From assembly GCF_017313335.1 (NCBI RefSeq), contig NZ_JAFLQW010000599.1, forward strand, positions 1 to 41,569: a stretch of DNA of 41,569 bases. The letters are read 5' to 3'. Source of the stretch: Phormidium pseudopriestleyi FRX01. GTDB taxonomy: Bacteria; Cyanobacteriota; Cyanobacteriia; Cyanobacteriales; Laspinemataceae. Below the pieces are notes generated by a model. It was not told the origin of the DNA. It saw only the letters and a list, made by a program, of their open reading frames with translations, and ran no database searches. This document shows positions 15,605-26,600 of the stretch, in pieces. Within the stretch, counting starts at the first letter, position 1. Each line of letters starts with the position of its first letter. A program made the translations under genes and the position numbers.

Positions 15605-15676
15605 ATGGCAACTGGGCTATTCAAGCCCCTGTTAACCGCTATGGCTGTACTATCCGCAAACACAACATTTTCATAA
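15605..15676 (+). CDS. Putative 23-aa leader peptide coupled to amiC
   Basis: The ORF ATG 15605 to TAA 15674-15676 encodes MATGLFKPLLTAMAVLSANT followed by TFS. It has a strong ribosome binding site (GGAGG, 6 nt spacing). Its stop overlaps the amiC start as TAATG, and amiC itself has no Shine-Dalgarno in front of it. This is a classical layout for translational coupling, so the leader probably drives or controls amiC translation. The peptide is hydrophobic and membrane-seeking. Whether the peptide has its own role is unknown. I do not recall it as a known conserved gene. Confidence 0.6.
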   Translation: MATGLFKPLLTAMAVLSANTTFS

Positions 15677-17460
15677 TGAAAAATTGGGTGAAACCGCAAA
15701 TATTTTCTTGGCTACTCCCAGCGGCAACTGCCGTGTTACTACTATCCGCTCCCGCGCAAGCGGCTAGACTGGAATATTGGCGTTTTGATACGGCTCAAAA
15801 CCGACTGCACTTTACGACGGCTGGAGGGGTTCAACCGAAAGCGCAATTAATCGCCAATCCCACACGCCTTGTGATTGATTTGCCCGGGACTACTCTGGAT
15901 CGACAGACAGTAACTCAGCCCGTTGGCAGTCCCGGATTTGAGTCAATTCGAGTGGGACAGTTTGAGTCAGACACGGCTCGATTAGTGATTGAATTAAGCC
16001 CGGGTTATACCCTAGATCCGCAACAGGTGCAATTCCGGGGAATCACTCCCACGGAATGGACGGTGGATTTACCGACACCTCAACGAATTGGGGCAGCATC
16101 GAGTGGATCGGCTGCGGCATCACCGACTCAATCGGGCAGCGGAGTTCAAATCGAAAATGTTCAGGTGACGCCGGATGGATTTTTTATCCGGACCCGAGGG
16201 GGGCAGCCTCAAGTCAAAATGGAGCGGAGTAGCGATCGCTCCTTATATGTGGATATCCCCGGGGCCACAATCTCCCCCAACATGGGGTCACGAGACCAAC
16301 TGCTCGATCGCCACGGTGTCGCTCGCATGAGTGTCCGCCCCCTGGACGGGTCAACTCCTGGAGTGCGAGTGACCTTCGTATTATCGGATACTAACTCCAA
16401 TTGGCAGGTCACCGCGAGCAACTTGGGTGGCGTGGTGGTTCTGCCCGGTCCTCAAGGTTCCAGGGTTGGGTCCGGGTCTGTGGCAATGGCTCAGAATCCC
16501 AGTAGCGATCGCATGGTCACCATTGAAGGCATCGAACTGCAACAAGATGGGTCCCAAATTTTAATCAAATCTAATCAACCCTTCACCTACACCAGCGAAT
16601 GGGACCGCGCTTCTGGAGCCTATCGAATCGTCATTCCCTCAGCCCAGTTAGGCAATGGGGTCCAACCTCCTCAGTCTACGAATCGCGGTGCTTTTTTATG
16701 GGTAAAGTTGCAGCAAGAAGACCCCCAAACTGTGGCAATTCTAGTCCAACCCGCAGCTGGGGTGCGGATTGGACCCCTGACCCAACCCAGTCCACAATTG
16801 CTCTCGGTTACCTTACAACGTCCCGGTAACGTCGCAGCAGCCCCTAATTCCAGCACCTCGATTCCCACTGCCCCGGCACCGATGAATTATCCTGCGCCTT
16901 CGCCAATGCGATCGCGCGATGGACGACGAGTTGTCGTCATAGATGCTGGACATGGTGGTAGAGACCCCGGTGCCGTTGGGATTGGGGGACTCCAAGAAAA
17001 GGGAGTCGTCATGGACATTTCCCAACAGGTGGCGAGAATTTTAGAACAAAATGGCGTCCAAGTTGTCATGACTCGTCAGGATGACCGGGAAATCGATTTA
17101 GCGCCTCGGGTTCAACTGGCTAACCGGGTCAATGCAGATATTTTTGTGAGCATTCATGCCAATGCGATTGATATGAGTCGCCCGGATGTGAATGGCATTG
17201 AGACTTATTATTATGCCAGTGGTCAGCGTCTGGCCCAAACCCTTCATAACAGCCTTTTGCAAGGGACTGGCGCTCGCGATCGCCGGGTGCGGCAAGCGAG
17301 ATTTTATGTTTTACGCCATACCTCCATGCCTGCGGTATTACTGGAAGTCGGGTTTGTCACTGGTGCAGAAGATGCCCCTCGACTGGCTAATGCAGCTTAC
17401 CGGACTCAATTAGCCCTGGCGATCGCTCAGGGTGTTCTACAATACCTGCAAAATCCATAG
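15676..17460 (+). CDS. amiC: N-acetylmuramoyl-L-alanine amidase with AMIN domains
   Basis: This periplasmic zinc amidase cuts the bond between MurNAc and L-Ala and splits septal peptidoglycan; in Anabaena, AmiC proteins also drill nanopores for septal junctions. The 594-aa protein has a signal peptide (cleavage near APAQAA-RLEYW, about 30), AMIN-type beta domains at about 32-135 and 155-255 and perhaps a third at 278-382, a Pro/Ser-rich linker, and the Amidase_3 domain from about 417. Zinc and catalytic residues are His426 (DAGHGG), Glu441 (QEKG), His494 (SIHAN) and Glu557 (LLEVGF). Preceded by a coupled leader ORF and followed after 96 bp by murI. Heterocystous relatives carry two tandem amiC genes here; only one is present. 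Confidence 0.95.
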   Translation: MKNWVKPQIFSWLLPAATAVLLLSAPAQAARLEYWRFDTAQNRLHFTTAGGVQPKAQLIANPTRLVIDLPGTTLDRQTVTQPVGSPGFESIRVGQFESDTARLVIELSPGYTLDPQQVQFRGITPTEWTVDLPTPQRIGAASSGSAAASPTQSGSGVQIENVQVTPDGFFIRTRGGQPQVKMERSSDRSLYVDIPGATISPNMGSRDQLLDRHGVARMSVRPLDGSTPGVRVTFVLSDTNSNWQVTASNLGGVVVLPGPQGSRVGSGSVAMAQNPSSDRMVTIEGIELQQDGSQILIKSNQPFTYTSEWDRASGAYRIVIPSAQLGNGVQPPQSTNRGAFLWVKLQQEDPQTVAILVQPAAGVRIGPLTQPSPQLLSVTLQRPGNVAAAPNSSTSIPTAPAPMNYPAPSPMRSRDGRRVVVIDAGHGGRDPGAVGIGGLQEKGVVMDISQQVARILEQNGVQVVMTRQDDREIDLAPRVQLANRVNADIFVSIHANAIDMSRPDVNGIETYYYASGQRLAQTLHNSLLQGTGARDRRVRQARFYVLRHTSMPAVLLEVGFVTGAEDAPRLANAAYRTQLALAIAQGVLQYLQNP

Positions 17461-17556: not shown

Positions 17557-18525
17557 GTGTCTAACTTTTCTGAGTCTGACCTGAGTCCCTTGTACGACGA
17601 TTGTTCAGGACAAAGCGATGGGTTTGTCCACAATACTGGCTCTGACTATCTATCCAGTTCCATTGCTGGTTCCCCACCCTATACCCCTGGAGCTGATGGG
17701 AACAACCAACGACCTAGAATAGGGGTTTTTGACAGTGGTCTGGGGGGCCTGACTGTCTTGCGAGAACTCTACCGCCAGCTTCCCCAGGAATCCATTCTTT
17801 ATTTTGGGGATACTGCTCGTCTTCCTTATGGCACTCGCTCTCAAGCAGAAATTATCCAATTTGTGCGCGAGATTCTCCACTGGATGATGACACAGAATGT
17901 CAAAATGGTCATTATGGCCTGCAATACCAGTTCCGCTCTGGCCCTGGAAGTGGTGCAAGCAGAGTTTCCCGTGCCGATGTTGGGCGTGATTTTACCCGGC
18001 GCGAGGGCTGCTGTAAGTCAAGGTCGCCGGATTGGGGTGATTGCGACCCCGGCAACGGCGGCGAGTAATGCATATCGGCGTGCGATTCAAGAAATGAATG
18101 CAGAGTCGCGGGTTTGGCAAGTGGGTTGTCCGGAGTTTGTGCCTTTAATTGAAGGCAACCTGATTAATGACCCTTATACGATGGAGGTGGCACGGGAATA
18201 TTTGGCTCCTCTACAAGAGCAGCAAATCGATACGTTGGTTTATGGTTGTACTCACTATCCCCTTTTAGCTCCAGTTTTCAAGAGTATTTTGCCGAGTTCG
18301 GTCCAGTTAGTGGATCCGGCTGTTCATGTGGTGGCAGCAGCGGCCCAGGAGTTGGAGATGTTAGGGCTACGAGAGACAGGTCCGGCACTCCCGACTCGAT
18401 TTACAGTGAGTGGTTGTGCTCAAGAGTTTGCTCAACGGGCGGTACACTTACTCGGATGTACTCCGGTGGTGTCCAAGGTGTGTTTACCTGTTTTAGAAGG
18501 TCAACCTTTGCCGGTGGAACCTTGA
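17557..18525 (+). CDS. murI: Glutamate racemase
   Basis: MurI makes D-glutamate for peptidoglycan precursors. The catalytic pair is present: Cys122 in ACNTSSAL and Cys231 in YGCTHYPLL, with the substrate loop FDSGLGGLTVLREL (Asp59, Ser60) and YFGDTARLPYGTRS. The frame starts at a GTG (17557) and gives a 50-residue Ser/Asp/Gly-rich N-terminal extension before the family's usual start near RIGVFDSG; no good alternative start or Shine-Dalgarno was found nearer the domain, so the extension may be real. It is downstream of amiC with a short hairpin (AATCTTTC-t-GAAAGATT) in the gap, and upstream of sds, an order I recall from other filamentous cyanobacteria. Confidence 0.95.
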   Translation: MSNFSESDLSPLYDDCSGQSDGFVHNTGSDYLSSSIAGSPPYTPGADGNNQRPRIGVFDSGLGGLTVLRELYRQLPQESILYFGDTARLPYGTRSQAEIIQFVREILHWMMTQNVKMVIMACNTSSALALEVVQAEFPVPMLGVILPGARAAVSQGRRIGVIATPATAASNAYRRAIQEMNAESRVWQVGCPEFVPLIEGNLINDPYTMEVAREYLAPLQEQQIDTLVYGCTHYPLLAPVFKSILPSSVQLVDPAVHVVAAAAQELEMLGLRETGPALPTRFTVSGCAQEFAQRAVHLLGCTPVVSKVCLPVLEGQPLPVEP

Positions 18526-19786: not shown

Positions 19787-20758
19787 ATGACCTCAACCAC
19801 CTCCCTATTTTCCCCGGTTGAAGCAGACCTGCGGTTGTTAACCGAGAACCTGAAACAGCTAGTTGGTGCCCGTCACCCCATTTTGTTCGCTGCGGCGGAG
19901 TACCTTTTTGGGGCCAAGGGAAAACGGATGAGGCCAGCAATCGTGCTGTTGCTCTCGCGGGCCTTGGCACCCGATGGAGAGATCACCCCTCGTCATCGAC
20001 GATTAGCTGAAATCACGGAAATGATCCACACGGCCAGCTTAGTCCACGACGATGTAGTGGACGAATCGGAACTCCGCCGAGGAGTGCCGACGGTTCATAG
20101 TCGATTTGGCAATCGTGTGGCGGTGTTAGCTGGGGATTTCCTGTTTGCTCAATCGAGCTGGTATTTAGCAAACTTAGATAACCTAGAAGTGGTCAAATTG
20201 CTCTCGGAAGTGATTATGAATCTAGCCGAGGGAGAGATTCAGCAAGGGCTGAATCGATTTGACAGCAGCTTAGGGATTGAAGCTTACCTAGAAAAAAGCT
20301 ACTATAAAACCGCCTCCTTAATTGCCAACAGTTCTAAAGCGGCGGGTATATTAAGTGAGGTAGATGAAGAGTTAGCGGAAAACTTCTATCAATATGGACG
20401 CCAGATTGGTCTAGCGTTTCAAATTGTGGATGATATCTTAGACTTCACGGGTTCAACGGATGTTTTAGGAAAAAATGCGGGTTCGGACCTCAGCAGCGGC
20501 AATCTGACGGCACCGACGTTATATGCGTTGGAAGAGAAACCCTATTTAGAGGTTTTAATTGAGCGCGAGTTTGCCGAAGAGGAGGATTTAGCCGAAGCGA
20601 TCGCCTTGATTAAAGACTCCAATGGCATCCCTCGTGCTCGGGAACTGGCCGCTTTCCATGCTCGGGGTGCGGTCAAGCACTTAGAGGGTCTGCCCCCGGG
20701 GGAATGTCATCAAGCCTTGGTAAAATTGGCGGATTATGTCCTGAGTCGCTTGTATTAG
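19787..20758 (+). CDS. sds: Solanesyl diphosphate synthase (long-chain all-trans polyprenyl)
   Basis: The enzyme elongates prenyl diphosphates with IPP to make the C45 side chain of plastoquinone-9. The 323-aa protein has both Mg-binding aspartate motifs: DDVVD (88-92) followed by ESELRRG, and DDILD (215-219), plus GKRMRPAIVLL near the N-terminus. Chain length cannot be read securely from sequence, but this is the standard cyanobacterial member and sits in the murI-sds order I recall from related genomes. It is followed by a short stem CCAGTGG/CCACTGG (20773-20793) 15 nt after the stop. Confidence 0.92.
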   Translation: MTSTTSLFSPVEADLRLLTENLKQLVGARHPILFAAAEYLFGAKGKRMRPAIVLLLSRALAPDGEITPRHRRLAEITEMIHTASLVHDDVVDESELRRGVPTVHSRFGNRVAVLAGDFLFAQSSWYLANLDNLEVVKLLSEVIMNLAEGEIQQGLNRFDSSLGIEAYLEKSYYKTASLIANSSKAAGILSEVDEELAENFYQYGRQIGLAFQIVDDILDFTGSTDVLGKNAGSDLSSGNLTAPTLYALEEKPYLEVLIEREFAEEEDLAEAIALIKDSNGIPRARELAAFHARGAVKHLEGLPPGECHQALVKLADYVLSRLY

Positions 20759-21322: not shown

Positions 21323-21817
21323 TTAGGCAATATCCGGCGGGACTGGGCGAGATTTAAGCGGATTAGACTGGAGTTGCAGATGTTGTTGTAACTGCGCCTG
21401 AATCAGGGTTTGAAGGTCCTGACGACGAACCTCCGTCCCGGCAGAAACATCTCCTGATTTTTCAAAAAAAACCACACTATCGAGGGTATCAATTGCCACC
21501 ATCTGAAATAAAATATGAATCACCGGGACCGGCACAGCAATTGCTTGTGAATCATTGGGAGCATAACTACCATTGCTGGCGTCCTTAACTGAAGGAAAAG
21601 CATAAATTACCTGTTTCTCAAGATCAGGTTGAGCGCGATTGCGTAACGCCGTCACCATCCAACGTTGATTAAGAGTTTGCAGGATATAATACTGGGAATG
21701 GCGCAATTGCAAAGCCAGTTGCTTCAACGCTGGCGCGATCGCAGCCACGATACCAGGAGTTTGACCATCTTGGGGTGCATTGTCAATCAGAAGCTGAACT
21801 TGTCGATCTAAATTCAT
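21323..21817 (-). CDS. Conserved cyanobacterial protein of unknown function
   Basis: From the ATG at 21817 the product is 164 aa, starting MNLDRQVQLLIDNAPQDG. It continues GIVAAIAPALKQLALQLRHS, YYILQTLNQRWMVTAL, YAFPSVKDAS, VPVPVIHILFQMVAIDTLDS and ends RPVPPDIA. I recognise this as a widely conserved cyanobacterial family without a known role. The frame runs back to 22060, but that would overlap the divergent hetZ gene and adds unrelated sequence; 21844 and 21868 are other possible ATG starts. No signal peptide or membrane span. Confidence 0.8.
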   Translation of the reverse strand: MNLDRQVQLLIDNAPQDGQTPGIVAAIAPALKQLALQLRHSQYYILQTLNQRWMVTALRNRAQPDLEKQVIYAFPSVKDASNGSYAPNDSQAIAVPVPVIHILFQMVAIDTLDSVVFFEKSGDVSAGTEVRRQDLQTLIQAQLQQHLQLQSNPLKSRPVPPDIA

Positions 21818-21907: not shown

Positions 21908-23077
21908 ATGATGGGAAAAATCGAGGGTCGCGTGGAAGAAGATATTTTTCAACTTCTCTTTACAGAACTCCAGCAAAATACCCGTTCTTCTGACAATAAA
22001 TGCCGGGAAGTCGCCGATCGCATTGCTGCAGAAGTCAACCGGATTTGCCAAGAAAGTCAAAGAATTAAAGCATCAGGAGAAGAAGAAAAATGGAGAGTTA
22101 CTTTATCCCGACATCGCTTACAGCAATGTCTGTTTTATTATAATTTTGGGGCGCGAGGGGGGAGAGTGGAATTACACAGTACCCTCAGTGCGATGGTTTA
22201 TCGCTACATTACGCCGCCTCAAATCCAGTCGAGTTATCAAGCTCGCTTGAACTTAATCGAAGATTTTCTACAAGGATTTTATGTGGAATCCTTAAATGCG
22301 TTTCGACGAGAAGCGCAACTGGAGGGGACCTTTTCCCCCACCACCTTGTTAGAACTGTCTGAATATATGGCATTCACCGAACGGTATGCTAAACGGCGGA
22401 TTCCGCTATCGGGAGGGCGATCGCAACAACTGCTGATCTTGCGAGCACAAACCTTTTCGCAACAGCAACCGCCAGAAACAACGGTCGATATGGAGCAAGC
22501 TGCCGAAGGGTCCTCCCTAGACTCAGACCAAACCTGGAATGACTCCTCAGTGCAGCAAGTGCGACATGCGATGGTTGATCGGGATCTAGAACCTGCCGAT
22601 CATTCCTTGCGCGAAACCGTCGTCAAAGAAGTGCTGGGTTACCTGCAAGAGAGAGGACAAAACGACTGTGCGGACTATTTTATTTTGCGATTGCAAGATT
22701 TACCCACCAATGAAATCGAAGAAATTTTAGGCGTGACTCCGCGACAGCGGGATTACTTACAGCAGCGCTTTAAATATCATTTGATTCGATTTGCACTCTC
22801 TCACCGTTGGGAACTGGTCCATGAATGGTTAGAAGCCGATTTAGAGCGAAACTTGGGGTTAACTCCGGAACGGTGGCAACAATTTCAAGACAGCCTAGAA
22901 GCTTCACAACGGAAATTACTCGAATTAAAGCAACAAGGCGCAAACGATTCAGACATTGCCAAACTCTTAGAATGTACAGTTAACCAAGTGCAGAAACGGT
23001 GGTTTAGACTACTAGAAGCCGCATGGCATCTTCGCAACGAGCGCGATTCCGGAAATAATGCATCTACAGATGAATAG
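21908..23077 (+). CDS. hetZ: HetZ family protein
   Basis: HetZ is a cyanobacterial protein needed for early heterocyst differentiation in Anabaena, where it acts with HetR and has DNA-binding ability. The 389-aa protein matches the family along its length: RVELHSTLSAMVYRYITPPQ, SSYQARLNLIEDFLQGFYVE, SLNAFRREAQ, LLELSEYMAFTERYAKRRIP, AQTFSQQQPPETTVDMEQAA, and the C-terminal helix-turn-helix-like LGVTPRQRDYLQQRFKYHLI plus KRWFRLLEAAWHLRN. Two ATGs stand in tandem (21908, 21911). It is followed 11 bp later by patU, so the two are co-transcribed. HetZ also occurs in cyanobacteria that make no heterocysts, so its presence does not show that this organism does. Confidence 0.85.
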   Translation: MMGKIEGRVEEDIFQLLFTELQQNTRSSDNKCREVADRIAAEVNRICQESQRIKASGEEEKWRVTLSRHRLQQCLFYYNFGARGGRVELHSTLSAMVYRYITPPQIQSSYQARLNLIEDFLQGFYVESLNAFRREAQLEGTFSPTTLLELSEYMAFTERYAKRRIPLSGGRSQQLLILRAQTFSQQQPPETTVDMEQAAEGSSLDSDQTWNDSSVQQVRHAMVDRDLEPADHSLRETVVKEVLGYLQERGQNDCADYFILRLQDLPTNEIEEILGVTPRQRDYLQQRFKYHLIRFALSHRWELVHEWLEADLERNLGLTPERWQQFQDSLEASQRKLLELKQQGANDSDIAKLLECTVNQVQKRWFRLLEAAWHLRNERDSGNNASTDE

Positions 23078-23088
23078 GGGGGTAAGAC

Positions 23089-24225
23089 ATGGATAGGGAC
23101 GAGCAAGTATTTCAAAACCTTGCCAACTCAGAGGCTGTTCAAGAGCGAATTCTCGGGTGGCTGTTCCAACTCTCTCAGCCAGACCCGATGCCGCAAATGG
23201 AAGAGCTAACCAGTCCGGAAACACCTCCGGGAACAGACTTAGACAGCCGTTTAGCTCAGAAAAACTTAGACCCTCTCGATTCTGAACCAATCGAGCGATC
23301 GCCCTCAATCGAGGGTGAATCCGAAGCAGGGTTTACCGAACTGGACGAGGGATTGAGTCTCAAAGGAGAGCGACCAATTAAACCAGGAGAGATACCTGCC
23401 GTGCAAGACCGTTTTTACACACTTGTGAAACGCCGACTGGAAACTGAAATTCAACATCACCCCCCCCTATTTCCTTGGGAAAATGAACTGTTGGATTACG
23501 AACCTGATTATTTAGATTTTCCCGAAGAGAAAAAAGTTCCTGCCTTCGATTGGTTGACCCAGTTGCCTTTGTTGAGTTTGCCAGTCACTCTCCCGGCGAC
23601 TGTACTCACCCAACTTTTAGAAGAATGCCGGGTTCTGATCCAATCTTCCCTGCAAGATGGAGCTAAATTAGTCCGTGCAGTAGAAGGATTATTTCCCGAT
23701 CGCCGTCCTCAACTACACCAGTTAGCGGGATGGGCCCTGGCCATGTCTCCAACCCGAGGATCAAGTGCAGAGGCGATTAATCCCCAGGCAACTGGAACGG
23801 TTGATTTTCCCCCCACCTACGAAGGGGCCAGTACGGATCAGAAAATGGTCCTCTGCTTATTGGCCGCCCGAGAAATTATGGGGACCCTGACCTTAAGCGT
23901 CTCTGCTTCGGGAGGGCCTGTCGAACGACAATGGCTCACCAGTGCCGGAATGTTGAGCATTCGGGTGGAATCTGTCGGGAAACCGAATCATGACCCCTCT
24001 AAACCGACCCAATCCCTCGGATGTCTGCGAGTCCGGGGTGAATTCCCCTCCGGTGGGACCTTGCAACTGCGCGGAGGAGAGGCTCAATCTACGACCTCTC
24101 GTCCTAATGCCGGATGTTTGCACGTTGAACTGTTTGAGCCGCAACCGGACTGCTCCTATTTATTAGAAGTGCGCTTCCATAACGAATACCAGAACGCCCT
24201 GACCTTTGTCGTGGGTCTCTCCTAG
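23089..24225 (+). CDS. patU: PatU-like protein
   Basis: This 378-aa protein follows hetZ by 11 bp with a GGGGGG-containing ribosome binding site overlapping the intergenic gap. In heterocyst formers PatU proteins affect heterocyst pattern; in Anabaena PCC 7120 the gene is split into patU5 and patU3, whereas here it is one frame. N-terminal part: FQNLANSEAVQERILGWLFQ followed by a low-complexity acidic linker (about 45-100). Central conserved core: DRFYTLVKRRLETEIQHHPP, LFPWENELLDYEPD, LPLLSLPVTLPATVLTQLLE, VRAVEGLFPDRRPQLHQLAGWAL. C-terminal part (about 250-378) is a beta-rich domain. Identification rests on position and on the core sequence as I remember it. Confidence 0.7.
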   Translation: MDRDEQVFQNLANSEAVQERILGWLFQLSQPDPMPQMEELTSPETPPGTDLDSRLAQKNLDPLDSEPIERSPSIEGESEAGFTELDEGLSLKGERPIKPGEIPAVQDRFYTLVKRRLETEIQHHPPLFPWENELLDYEPDYLDFPEEKKVPAFDWLTQLPLLSLPVTLPATVLTQLLEECRVLIQSSLQDGAKLVRAVEGLFPDRRPQLHQLAGWALAMSPTRGSSAEAINPQATGTVDFPPTYEGASTDQKMVLCLLAAREIMGTLTLSVSASGGPVERQWLTSAGMLSIRVESVGKPNHDPSKPTQSLGCLRVRGEFPSGGTLQLRGGEAQSTTSRPNAGCLHVELFEPQPDCSYLLEVRFHNEYQNALTFVVGLS

Positions 24226-24311
24226 AACGGACAACGAAAGCATTCATCCGATCTATAGAGTAAATTAGGAAGGAAGAAAGACTCGCTTTTGCTCTTTTAT
24301 CCTTCATCACT

Positions 24312-26600
24312 ATGTTTAACTCGTCAGGGATTCGGCATCTGTCCCTTATTCCCATCTGGCGTCGGCTCCGACAGCAAATCGAGGCGAGTAAACCTCCGAT
24401 TCCGGAGGACTCGATGATGCTGCGGGTGCTGGTGCAGGCCCTTGTGATCGTCGGGATTATTGCAACGGATGTGGCGGCAGGGACGATGATGAGCCTTTGG
24501 GCAGTCCCCTTGAGCATCGCAGGAGGCACCTGGAGTTGGTATCGCCGCCGCGATCGCAATACTGCCGTTAAATTTTTGCTTGCAATTGGGATGTTAGTAT
24601 CCCTCAGTGCTTTTTTTGGGCGCTTAGTTCAGGAACTCAACGATACCCGGGTAGTTCTGGCTGAACTGCTGATTCAAGTTCAGGTTCTCCATAGTTTTGA
24701 CCTCCCCCGGCGCTCGGATTTGGGCTATTCGATGGTGATCGGATTGATCCTGTTGGGGGTAGCGGGAACCGTCAGCCAAACCTTAGCCTTTGCCCCGTTA
24801 TTATTAATCTTTTTGGCGATCGCCCTGCCTACGTTGGTCTTGGATTATCGATCGCGCCTCGGACTGAAACCGGAGCAACGTCCCACGGGACCCCGGAACA
24901 AAAAGAAAATAAACTATGGACAACTGAGTTTTTACGGTGTCCTGTTTAGTCTGGTTCTGGCGATCGGACTGGTCATTTTTGCCGTGATGCCGCGTTTTCC
25001 TGGCTATCAATTACAGACCTTTCCGGTGAGTTCTCCCCTGGAAATTCCGGGGGATTTAGATGGTCGTCAAATTGTCAATCCGGGCTATGGCAATGGCGAA
25101 GGAGACGGCACCGGAGGGGACGGCAGTGATGGACCCGGAGAGATTGACGATACCTTTTATTATGGGTTCAATAACCGGATAAACCAAAACCTGCGGGGTG
25201 AAATGACACCCAAAGTCGTGATGCGGGTGCGATCGCAAGCGGAGGGATTTTGGCGCGTCTTGGCATTTGACCGCTATACCGGGAAAGGCTGGGAAATTGG
25301 TCGCAATGAAGAGGCAACCACCCTGCGCCGTCCTAGTTGGTCCTATCAATTTAATGTTCCCATAGATCGCACGCGACTAGGGAGAACCCAGGAGATTGTT
25401 CAAAGCTATACGGCAGTTTCGGATTTACCGAATATCATTCCGGCGCTATATGAGCCGAAATCTCTTTATTTTCCGACGGAACAGGTGACCTTTGATACTG
25501 AAGGCAGTCTGCGATCGCCCTTGGGTTTGGTCGAGGGACTGACTTACACGGTGATTTCAGAAGTCCCTTATCGCGATCGCACCGCCCTTTCTCAAGCCCC
25601 CACAACCTATTCCAAGGCCATTCGCAATTATTACCTGCAAGTCCCTCCAGAAATCAGCGATCGCGTGCGCCAACATACGGAGGAAATTTTAGCAGGCGCA
25701 CCCAATCCGGTCACCTCTCCCTACGAAAAAGCCCTCTATCTGGCTCAATATCTCAAACAAAACTACAGCATTCCGAACGACCCCTTTGGTCTGCCTTTTT
25801 TAGGACCCGAAGATGATTTGGTCGAAACCTTTCTATTCCAGCAACAGGGGGGCTATCCCGACCACTTCTCCACCGTCTATACCATCATGTTGCGTTCCAT
25901 TGGGATTCCCTCTCGCTTAGTCGTGGGGTTTGCGCCTGGAGAGTTTAATCCCTTTACGGGACTCTATGTGGTTCGCAATACCGATGCTTATGCCATGACG
26001 GAGGTGTATTTTCCCGAGTATGGGTGGTTTGCCTTCGATCCAATTCCCGGGAATGAAATCATCCCCCCATCCGTTCAAGAATATCAGACCTTTAGCGTGT
26101 TGCGGATGTTGTGGCGGTGGGTTGCGGGGTGGTTGCCTTCTCCAGTAACCGGATTTGCAGCAGCGGTGTTTTCTATCCTAGGCGGTTGGCTGGTGGGGAG
26201 CATTGTCTGGCTATTGCGACTGTTTACCGGAAGCTGGGTGGGACTATTTGCTGGTTCAATTTTACTCACGGGTTTGGCATTTCTAGGCTGGTTAGCTTGG
26301 AACGCTTTCGGACAGTGGCGTTATCGTCGGTTCTTGGCAAAAATGCCCCCAGTGGCACGACTGTATCAGCAAATGCTGGATACGTTAGGACAGCAGGGAT
26401 ATCGCAAACATCCGGCACAAACCCCGTTCGAGTATGCGCGAGAGTTACACGAACATCAACCCCAGACTGATGCATCTGCAGTTGAGGAGATTTCTCACGC
26501 TTATGTGAGTTGGCGTTATGGGGGCAGTGAACCGAATCTGGATCTTCTCCAGGAACGGTTAGAAGAGTTGAAAAGGCGATCGCAACTCCGACGAAAGTAG
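24312..26600 (+). CDS. Membrane transglutaminase-like protein lacking catalytic Cys and His
   Basis: This 762-aa protein has the TgpA architecture: several N-terminal transmembrane helices (about 38-105, 138-180, 206-227; DUF3488-like), a long extracytoplasmic region, a transglutaminase-like core at about 440-580, two further helices (about 612-665) and a DUF4129-like C-terminal domain. In the core the usual GYCxHF is GGYPDHFS, with Pro516 in place of the nucleophilic Cys, and the usual DAHAW is DAYAMTEVY, with Tyr560 in place of His; the Asp of FAFDP (Asp576) remains. It should therefore not act as a Cys protease/transglutaminase. It lies 86 bp after patU on the same strand. A Gly/Asp-rich loop (GEGDGTGGDGSDGPGE) lies near 262-277. 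Confidence 0.88.
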   Translation: MFNSSGIRHLSLIPIWRRLRQQIEASKPPIPEDSMMLRVLVQALVIVGIIATDVAAGTMMSLWAVPLSIAGGTWSWYRRRDRNTAVKFLLAIGMLVSLSAFFGRLVQELNDTRVVLAELLIQVQVLHSFDLPRRSDLGYSMVIGLILLGVAGTVSQTLAFAPLLLIFLAIALPTLVLDYRSRLGLKPEQRPTGPRNKKKINYGQLSFYGVLFSLVLAIGLVIFAVMPRFPGYQLQTFPVSSPLEIPGDLDGRQIVNPGYGNGEGDGTGGDGSDGPGEIDDTFYYGFNNRINQNLRGEMTPKVVMRVRSQAEGFWRVLAFDRYTGKGWEIGRNEEATTLRRPSWSYQFNVPIDRTRLGRTQEIVQSYTAVSDLPNIIPALYEPKSLYFPTEQVTFDTEGSLRSPLGLVEGLTYTVISEVPYRDRTALSQAPTTYSKAIRNYYLQVPPEISDRVRQHTEEILAGAPNPVTSPYEKALYLAQYLKQNYSIPNDPFGLPFLGPEDDLVETFLFQQQGGYPDHFSTVYTIMLRSIGIPSRLVVGFAPGEFNPFTGLYVVRNTDAYAMTEVYFPEYGWFAFDPIPGNEIIPPSVQEYQTFSVLRMLWRWVAGWLPSPVTGFAAAVFSILGGWLVGSIVWLLRLFTGSWVGLFAGSILLTGLAFLGWLAWNAFGQWRYRRFLAKMPPVARLYQQMLDTLGQQGYRKHPAQTPFEYARELHEHQPQTDASAVEEISHAYVSWRYGGSEPNLDLLQERLEELKRRSQLRRK

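Follow-up and report, generated by a model that had tools for sequence, protein, structure and literature searches.

The gene at positions 24312-26600 of the window (the whole stretch of DNA analysed here, 41,569 nucleotides from Phormidium pseudopriestleyi FRX01) encodes a transglutaminase-like membrane protein that, judged from sequence, is a maintained pseudoenzyme belonging to a conserved, non-catalytic cyanobacterial clade. We favour, at a probability of roughly 0.6, a reading in which the entire clade consists of TgpA-family pseudoenzymes that serve as non-catalytic, membrane-anchored binding or scaffold proteins, possibly sensors, of the envelope. Protein identities of 91-93% mark the source of the window as a Laspinema-like cyanobacterium, with 93% to the counterpart in Laspinema sp. 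D2d, 92% to that in L. palackyanum and 91% to that in an Oscillatoria MAG. The gene and its parts are as follows.

24312-26600, + strand: pseudo-transglutaminase gene of TgpA architecture, ATG start, 762 amino acids
24414-24995, + strand: N-terminal membrane helices, approximately residues 35-228, making up most of TgpA_N's membrane part
25140-26111, + strand: extracytoplasmic β-domain and transglutaminase fold, residues 277-600, by structural match to the TgpA periplasmic domain
25857-25859, + strand: codon of Pro516, at the catalytic Cys position (family alignment and TgpA profile alignment)
25989-25991, + strand: codon of Tyr560, at the catalytic His position (family alignment and TgpA profile alignment)
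25995-25997, + strand: codon of Met562, Trp in 16 of 16 catalytic relatives (alignment columns)
26037-26039, + strand: codon of Asp576, the third triad residue, kept (family alignment and TgpA profile alignment)
26361-26567, + strand: DUF4129, residues 684-752, C-terminal tail (Pfam)

The protein has the features of the TgpA family, three domains within a single membrane protein and the TgpA periplasmic fold. An hmmscan search of Pfam-A at E ≤ 0.001 gave TgpA_N (residues 47-422), Transglut_core (466-577) and DUF4129 (684-752) only, each above its Pfam cut-off, in line with the original prediction that the architecture is otherwise complete. PF14400 and PF14402, the Pfam models of the 7TM inactive transglutaminase, found no match in this search, and membership of that family was rejected. 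The modelled helices (35-56, 61-77, 84-107, 112-128, 134-154, 158-182 and 202-228) probably lie in the membrane, going by the TgpA_N match, and residues 277-600 would be periplasmic by analogy with TgpA. Two AlphaFold models have intermediate confidence scores (mean pLDDT 69.9 and 70.4), with the loop at about residues 544-558 poorly modelled. Structure comparison, one of the checks proposed at the outset, returned the expected fold: the whole model matches the TgpA periplasmic domain 6g4h with Z 20.8 over 262 residues (3.4 Å, 22% identity), whereas the best non-TgpA entry reaches Z 11.4; for the domain model the corresponding values are 18.9 and 13.3. The window genome (92% complete) encodes one TgpA_N protein, the pseudo-transglutaminase itself, and three further Transglut_core proteins, in each of which Cys and His can be read in the motif.

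The active site lacks two of its three catalytic residues. The motif GGYPDHFS, starting at residue 513, places Pro516 at the nucleophile position, DAYAMTEV from residue 558 places Tyr560 at that of the histidine, and an FDP motif supplies Asp576. In a profile alignment to the TgpA periplasmic domain 6g49 (E 2.8e-21), the Cys of GFCAHY pairs with Pro516, the His of DAHAWVE with Tyr560 and the Asp of SVDP with Asp576; the family alignment agrees, so that both proposed substitutions and the retained Asp stand. A true Cys elsewhere in the protein was looked for: the 762-residue window protein contains no cysteine anywhere, as is also the case for 25 of the 113 full-length orthologue rows, and Cys occurs in at least 10 of those rows at columns 89 and 728 only, neither of them extracytoplasmic. 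A relocated Cys or His was rejected, the protein being without Cys and His518 being common to active relatives. By its sequence, this protein is incapable of the cysteine chemistry of transglutaminases and papain-like proteases.

The loss of the nucleophile extends across the family. With the whole window protein as query against 386 genomes of the phylum, 143 matched: 116 with the pseudoenzyme, 18 from other classes, and 9 with weaker, different matches only (6 of these Cys-type by their residues; G087, G324 and G370, weak matches, without residues read). The family alignment of 146 rows comprises 115 orthologous rows without Cys, 3 fragments that stop short of the site and 28 rows with Cys; the orthologous loci number 118 at >41% identity, fragments included. 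Not one of the 115 orthologous loci covering the nucleophile site (≥42% identity) has a Cys there, and the substitutions are therefore not a matter of chance. The same holds for 0 of 80 named loci, a set that overlaps the 115 and is biased toward the pseudoenzyme clade, because its search patterns were drawn from that clade; its triad columns read PYD in 78, PFN in 1 and AYD in 1. None of the Cys-bearing rows (19 from other classes, 9 low-identity proteins inside the class) exceeds about 40% identity, and the triad is not retained in any close homologue. A degenerate single copy was rejected, as Cys is absent across both sets of loci and dN/dS places the gene under constraint. The pseudoenzyme is present in 97 of the 105 genomes from the window's order, broken and fused copies counted.

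Around the missing nucleophile, the site has changed more widely. Among the 112 rows that remain without the fragments and the stopped copy L069, residue 516 is P in 93, A in 12, E in 3 and R, V, G or I in 1 each; residue 560 is Y in 73, F in 20, H in 14 and Q in 5; and residue 576 is D in 96 and N in 16. The original suggestion that cyanobacterial relatives share the substitutions thus holds for the Cys, gone from 115 of 115 loci of one clade, but not throughout for the His, which 14 of 112 rows keep. To the two substitutions first noted we add a third: column 562 is Trp in 16 of 16 catalytic relatives, and all 112 pseudoenzymes, including the 14 His-keepers, have Met, Leu, Ile or Val there. 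Between residues 430 and 600, 26 of the 54 columns conserved in catalytic relatives are kept in the pseudoenzymes, which indicates that the cleft has been remodelled beyond loss of its nucleophile and that what it binds need not be the old substrate. Separately, the family f2 loci L112, L116, L118 and L119 carry an insertion directly before GGYPDHF that puts two cysteines near the dead nucleophile position, and family f28 (L066, L067 and L068) is a divergent branch of 42-43% identity, with Glu/Gln at the Cys/His positions and a long stem.

Selection was assessed on three pairs, each of the window gene with a close relative, the window sequence being common to all three. Pairwise dN/dS of 0.11-0.16 over the gene as a whole drops to 0.037-0.050 in residues 501-590, the lowest of the regions compared, in large part because dS is high there; pN of residues 501-590 (0.0216) is close to that of residues 229-500 (0.0225, 0.0226 and 0.0322). 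Residues 501-590 also have the highest mean conservation (0.82) among nine regions. The most conserved 20-residue windows (about 0.92) start at residues 116-134, in the membrane part, and a key function could sit there. Pro516 is encoded by four synonymous codons, used 88, 50, 19 and 17 times (both locus sets, duplicates included). Together with the absence of Cys from both locus sets, the conservation and dN/dS of the core agree with the original view of a maintained pseudoenzyme, not decay.

The pseudoenzymes group together in phylogenies. In a tree of the core domain with the triad columns removed, whose bootstrap had not settled, 34 of the 118 orthologue rows form one clade (support 100/100, stem 1.06), and 18 Cys-type rows of other classes cluster (94/88) and adjoin that clade weakly (84/0). 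In a full-length tree of 47 rows, the 23 pseudoenzyme rows are again one clade (SH-aLRT 100), adjoined by the Cys-type proteins of other classes (support 91). The nearest full-length relatives are thus likely to be proteins of other classes of the phylum that keep Cys-His-Asp. Four genomes (L051-L054, family codes f23 and f27) encode long Cys-His-Asp TgpA-like proteins and have no pseudoenzyme; the best trees place these proteins outside the group formed by the pseudoenzymes and the other-class proteins together, although the AU test does not reject their union with the pseudoenzymes (p 0.37 for the core domain and 0.061 for the full length). In an RpoB tree, f27 branches basally within the sampled class (support 85), and f23 has a long branch in a different part of the tree.

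Upstream of the gene lie cell-wall genes, sds and hetZ-patU, in the following order.

15676-17460, + strand: AMIN-Amidase_3 peptidoglycan amidase
17557-18525, + strand: glutamate racemase, murI
19787-20758, + strand: solanesyl diphosphate synthase, sds
21323-21805, - strand: F1 protein, about 160 amino acids, conserved, no Pfam match (45% identity to the F1 protein of L059)
21908-23077, + strand: hetZ (NCBIfam HetZ equivalog, 651 bits, cut-off 550)
23089-24225, + strand: patU, named by position (family F0, which recurs upstream of the pseudo-transglutaminase)

The proposed placement next to hetZ-patU is confirmed as to HetZ by its NCBIfam score; PatU, whose window protein has no Pfam or NCBIfam match, is identified by position. 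The gap between patU and the pseudo-transglutaminase is 86 bp (24226-24311), as first described. F1 occurs at 110 loci; in the window its place is between sds and hetZ, and in several genomes lacking hetZ it directly adjoins the pseudo-transglutaminase. Copies elsewhere are:

L059:7016-7528
L115:3766-4242
L122:4496-4975
L125:4516-5061

Calling hetZ at E 1e-60, we find patU followed by the pseudo-transglutaminase on the same strand within 1 kb in 59 of the 76 genomes that have hetZ and the gene, covering 10 of 16 family codes. The expected adjacency is thus widely kept, but not in the other 17: 2 have the gene too near a contig end, 1 has a hetZ fusion, 4 have patU 2.4-3.5 kb away, 2 have hetZ inverted and 8 have no hetZ within the flank examined. 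Co-presence with hetZ is not obligatory either. The gene occurs without hetZ in 40 of its 116 genomes, and hetZ without the gene in 3; in the hetZ-less L063 and L073, the pseudo-transglutaminase still follows murI and sds. Across 133 loci, the patU gap has a median of 283 bp and is ≤150 bp in 26 and >150 bp in 107. Promoter and terminator scans were uninformative, giving 8 sites where 6.7 were expected and 9 where 7.5 were expected, respectively. The neighbourhood link is real but not obligatory, and the distribution of the gene indicates that the protein is not specific to the HetZ-PatU system; the originally suggested role in filament or septum biology, by way of hetZ-patU, is not supported in that form. 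The MoxR-DUF58-TgpA set is a known gene arrangement. We observe it at L046, L049 and L056-L058, and MoxR (F16) or DUF58-type (F31, F48) neighbours at 10 of 28 Cys-type loci (absent at the other 18), whereas sequence clustering of 1.5-6 kb flanks finds no F16, F31 or F48 around the pseudoenzyme genes, either at the 118 orthologous or at the 80 named loci.

Some genomes carry altered copies. In G022, whose genome is one contig, a 936-residue open reading frame (L145:3989-6796, + strand) fuses HetZ residues 11-352 in frame to residue 177 onward of the pseudo-transglutaminase; patU and the first membrane helices are missing. G121 (L059) retains, in two frames, stretches that match residues 14-368 and 717-755, the core being gone, and the G385 copy (L069) has three in-frame stops. 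At L147, L148 and L149 (G087, G051 and G233), sds, hetZ and patU are matched at the locus, and no pseudo-transglutaminase orthologue was found in those genomes. The gene is therefore dispensable where it is truncated, stopped, fused or missing.

In the reading that we prefer, the membrane helices would hold the protein in the inner membrane, with the transglutaminase-fold domain facing the periplasm and DUF4129 on the cytoplasmic side. The remodelled, conserved cleft would bind a peptide, a protein or a wall fragment without modifying it, and the result would be a binding or scaffold protein, possibly a sensing one, of the cyanobacterial envelope. A fuller scenario, which we regard as speculative and rather improbable, is that an envelope transglutaminase lost its nucleophile, His and Trp early in the cyanobacterial radiation and turned into a scaffold or receptor that binds a peptide or wall ligand. 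Nearly every lineage of the window's order, along with several other orders, would have kept it since then, in many of them in the HetZ-PatU region, where it would link wall state to division control.

Other readings weigh the same observations differently. The transglutaminase fold might be a structural remnant, a spacer or folding aid to membrane helices and a DUF4129 domain that do the work; the conservation peak in the membrane part, the variation among families at residues 516 and 560 and a core pN about equal to that of residues 229-500 all suit this, but no other region compared has as high a mean conservation or as low a dN/dS as the core, more constraint than a spacer should need, and we think this reading unlikely. 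Equally doubtful is a partner of HetZ-PatU that controls division or septal wall synthesis in filaments. The accessible text of PMC12288457 describes Anabaena PatU3 as limiting the synthesis of septal peptidoglycan, which makes such a connection a reasonable hypothesis, and it is helped by patU lying directly upstream on the same strand in most genomes with hetZ and by the murI, sds and amidase genes of the window. His or Gln at residue 560 is also rarer with hetZ (6 of 76 rows against 13 of 37 others), but relatedness reduces this contrast to only 4 independent pairs, and a dependence of residue 560 on hetZ, toward which the raw counts lean, was not adopted. Against this partnership stand the 40 genomes with the gene and no hetZ, the 3 with the reverse, hetZ located elsewhere in 8 of 76, the mostly wide gaps to patU, and the early stops that the accessible text of PMC9284123 gives for a gene of this kind next to patU in heterocystous UU774 and in PCC 9339.

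A catalyst with new chemistry, in which Ser520, His518, Asp558, Asp576 and Tyr560 form a different active site, is very improbable. His518 (0.95), Asp558 (0.97) and Glu564 (1.0) are nearly invariant in the pseudoenzymes, and at position 520, Ala in the relatives, Ser predominates (0.78); however, Ser520 is not invariant, Asp576 is replaced by Asn in 16 of 112, and His518, Asp558 and Glu564 are older shared residues, since Cys-type relatives conserve them too (0.81, 0.81 and 1.0). Decay of the gene, to which the broken copies in G121 and G385 and the hetZ fusion in G022 could point, is refuted by the present data for the window copy, an open frame with dN/dS of 0.11-0.16, and these three genomes are themselves among the 97 of 105 in the order that carry the gene.

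Known systems offer partial parallels to the clade. Pseudomonas aeruginosa TgpA (PA2873; 6g49 and 6g4h) shares TgpA_N, the transglutaminase core and the periplasmic fold, and differs in that the window protein has the Cys, the His and the Trp of DAHAW replaced. Cys-type TgpA-like proteins from other classes of the phylum (L031-L047) are 28-36% identical to the window protein, and the four tested (L031, L037, L039 and L046) have the same three domains, DUF4129 of L039 falling slightly below the cut-off. Unlike the pseudoenzymes, they keep Cys-His-Asp in 16 of 17 cases (L047 is broken after its Cys) and have DUF58 and/or MoxR-type neighbours at 4 of 17 loci (L039, L040, L045 and L046). Protein 4.2 (EPB42) of the human red cell, a fold match (7uzs, Z 9.3 and 10.0), has a scaffold role, although it is eukaryotic, lies on the cytoplasmic face and is without the TgpA membrane domain. 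It is described as a transglutaminase family member without catalytic activity (PMC10318531, accessible text). Transglutaminase activity has been measured for TgpA, which is reported to be critical for viability (PMC3507681, accessible text). Shewanella vesiculosa hm2192 is an inner-membrane protein annotated as an inactive transglutaminase, and its disruption is reported to raise vesicle output (PMC12096838, accessible text); it is annotated there as a seven-helix fusion, however, whereas the window protein matches TgpA_N, Transglut_core and DUF4129 only. Cyanobacterial pseudo-orthocaspases are also widespread pseudoenzymes of the phylum, with His replaced by Tyr and Cys by Ser (PMC6426788, excerpt), but their caspase-type p20 domain is unrelated. 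In polymorphic toxins, inactive transglutaminase domains have been proposed to act as anchors through peptide binding (PMC3482391, excerpt).

Our literature search, whose coverage left out most subscription journals, returned no recognised description of the clade and no functional study. According to the accessible text of PMC9284123, PCC 7120 and NIES-3754 have an intact transglutaminase gene next to patU, and in Mastigocladus UU774 and PCC 9339 it carries an early stop; by its position, this gene would belong to the pseudo-transglutaminase clade. That text cites transglutaminase roles in light response and photoprotection for the gene and does not mention absent catalytic residues. A gene treated in the literature as a transglutaminase would thus belong to a clade that, on the sequence evidence, is incapable of that chemistry. 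With a pseudoenzyme in 97 of 105 genomes of the order and a dead domain among its most constrained parts, the clade would represent a component of the cyanobacterial envelope, and one whose gene adjoins a division and differentiation locus already studied genetically.
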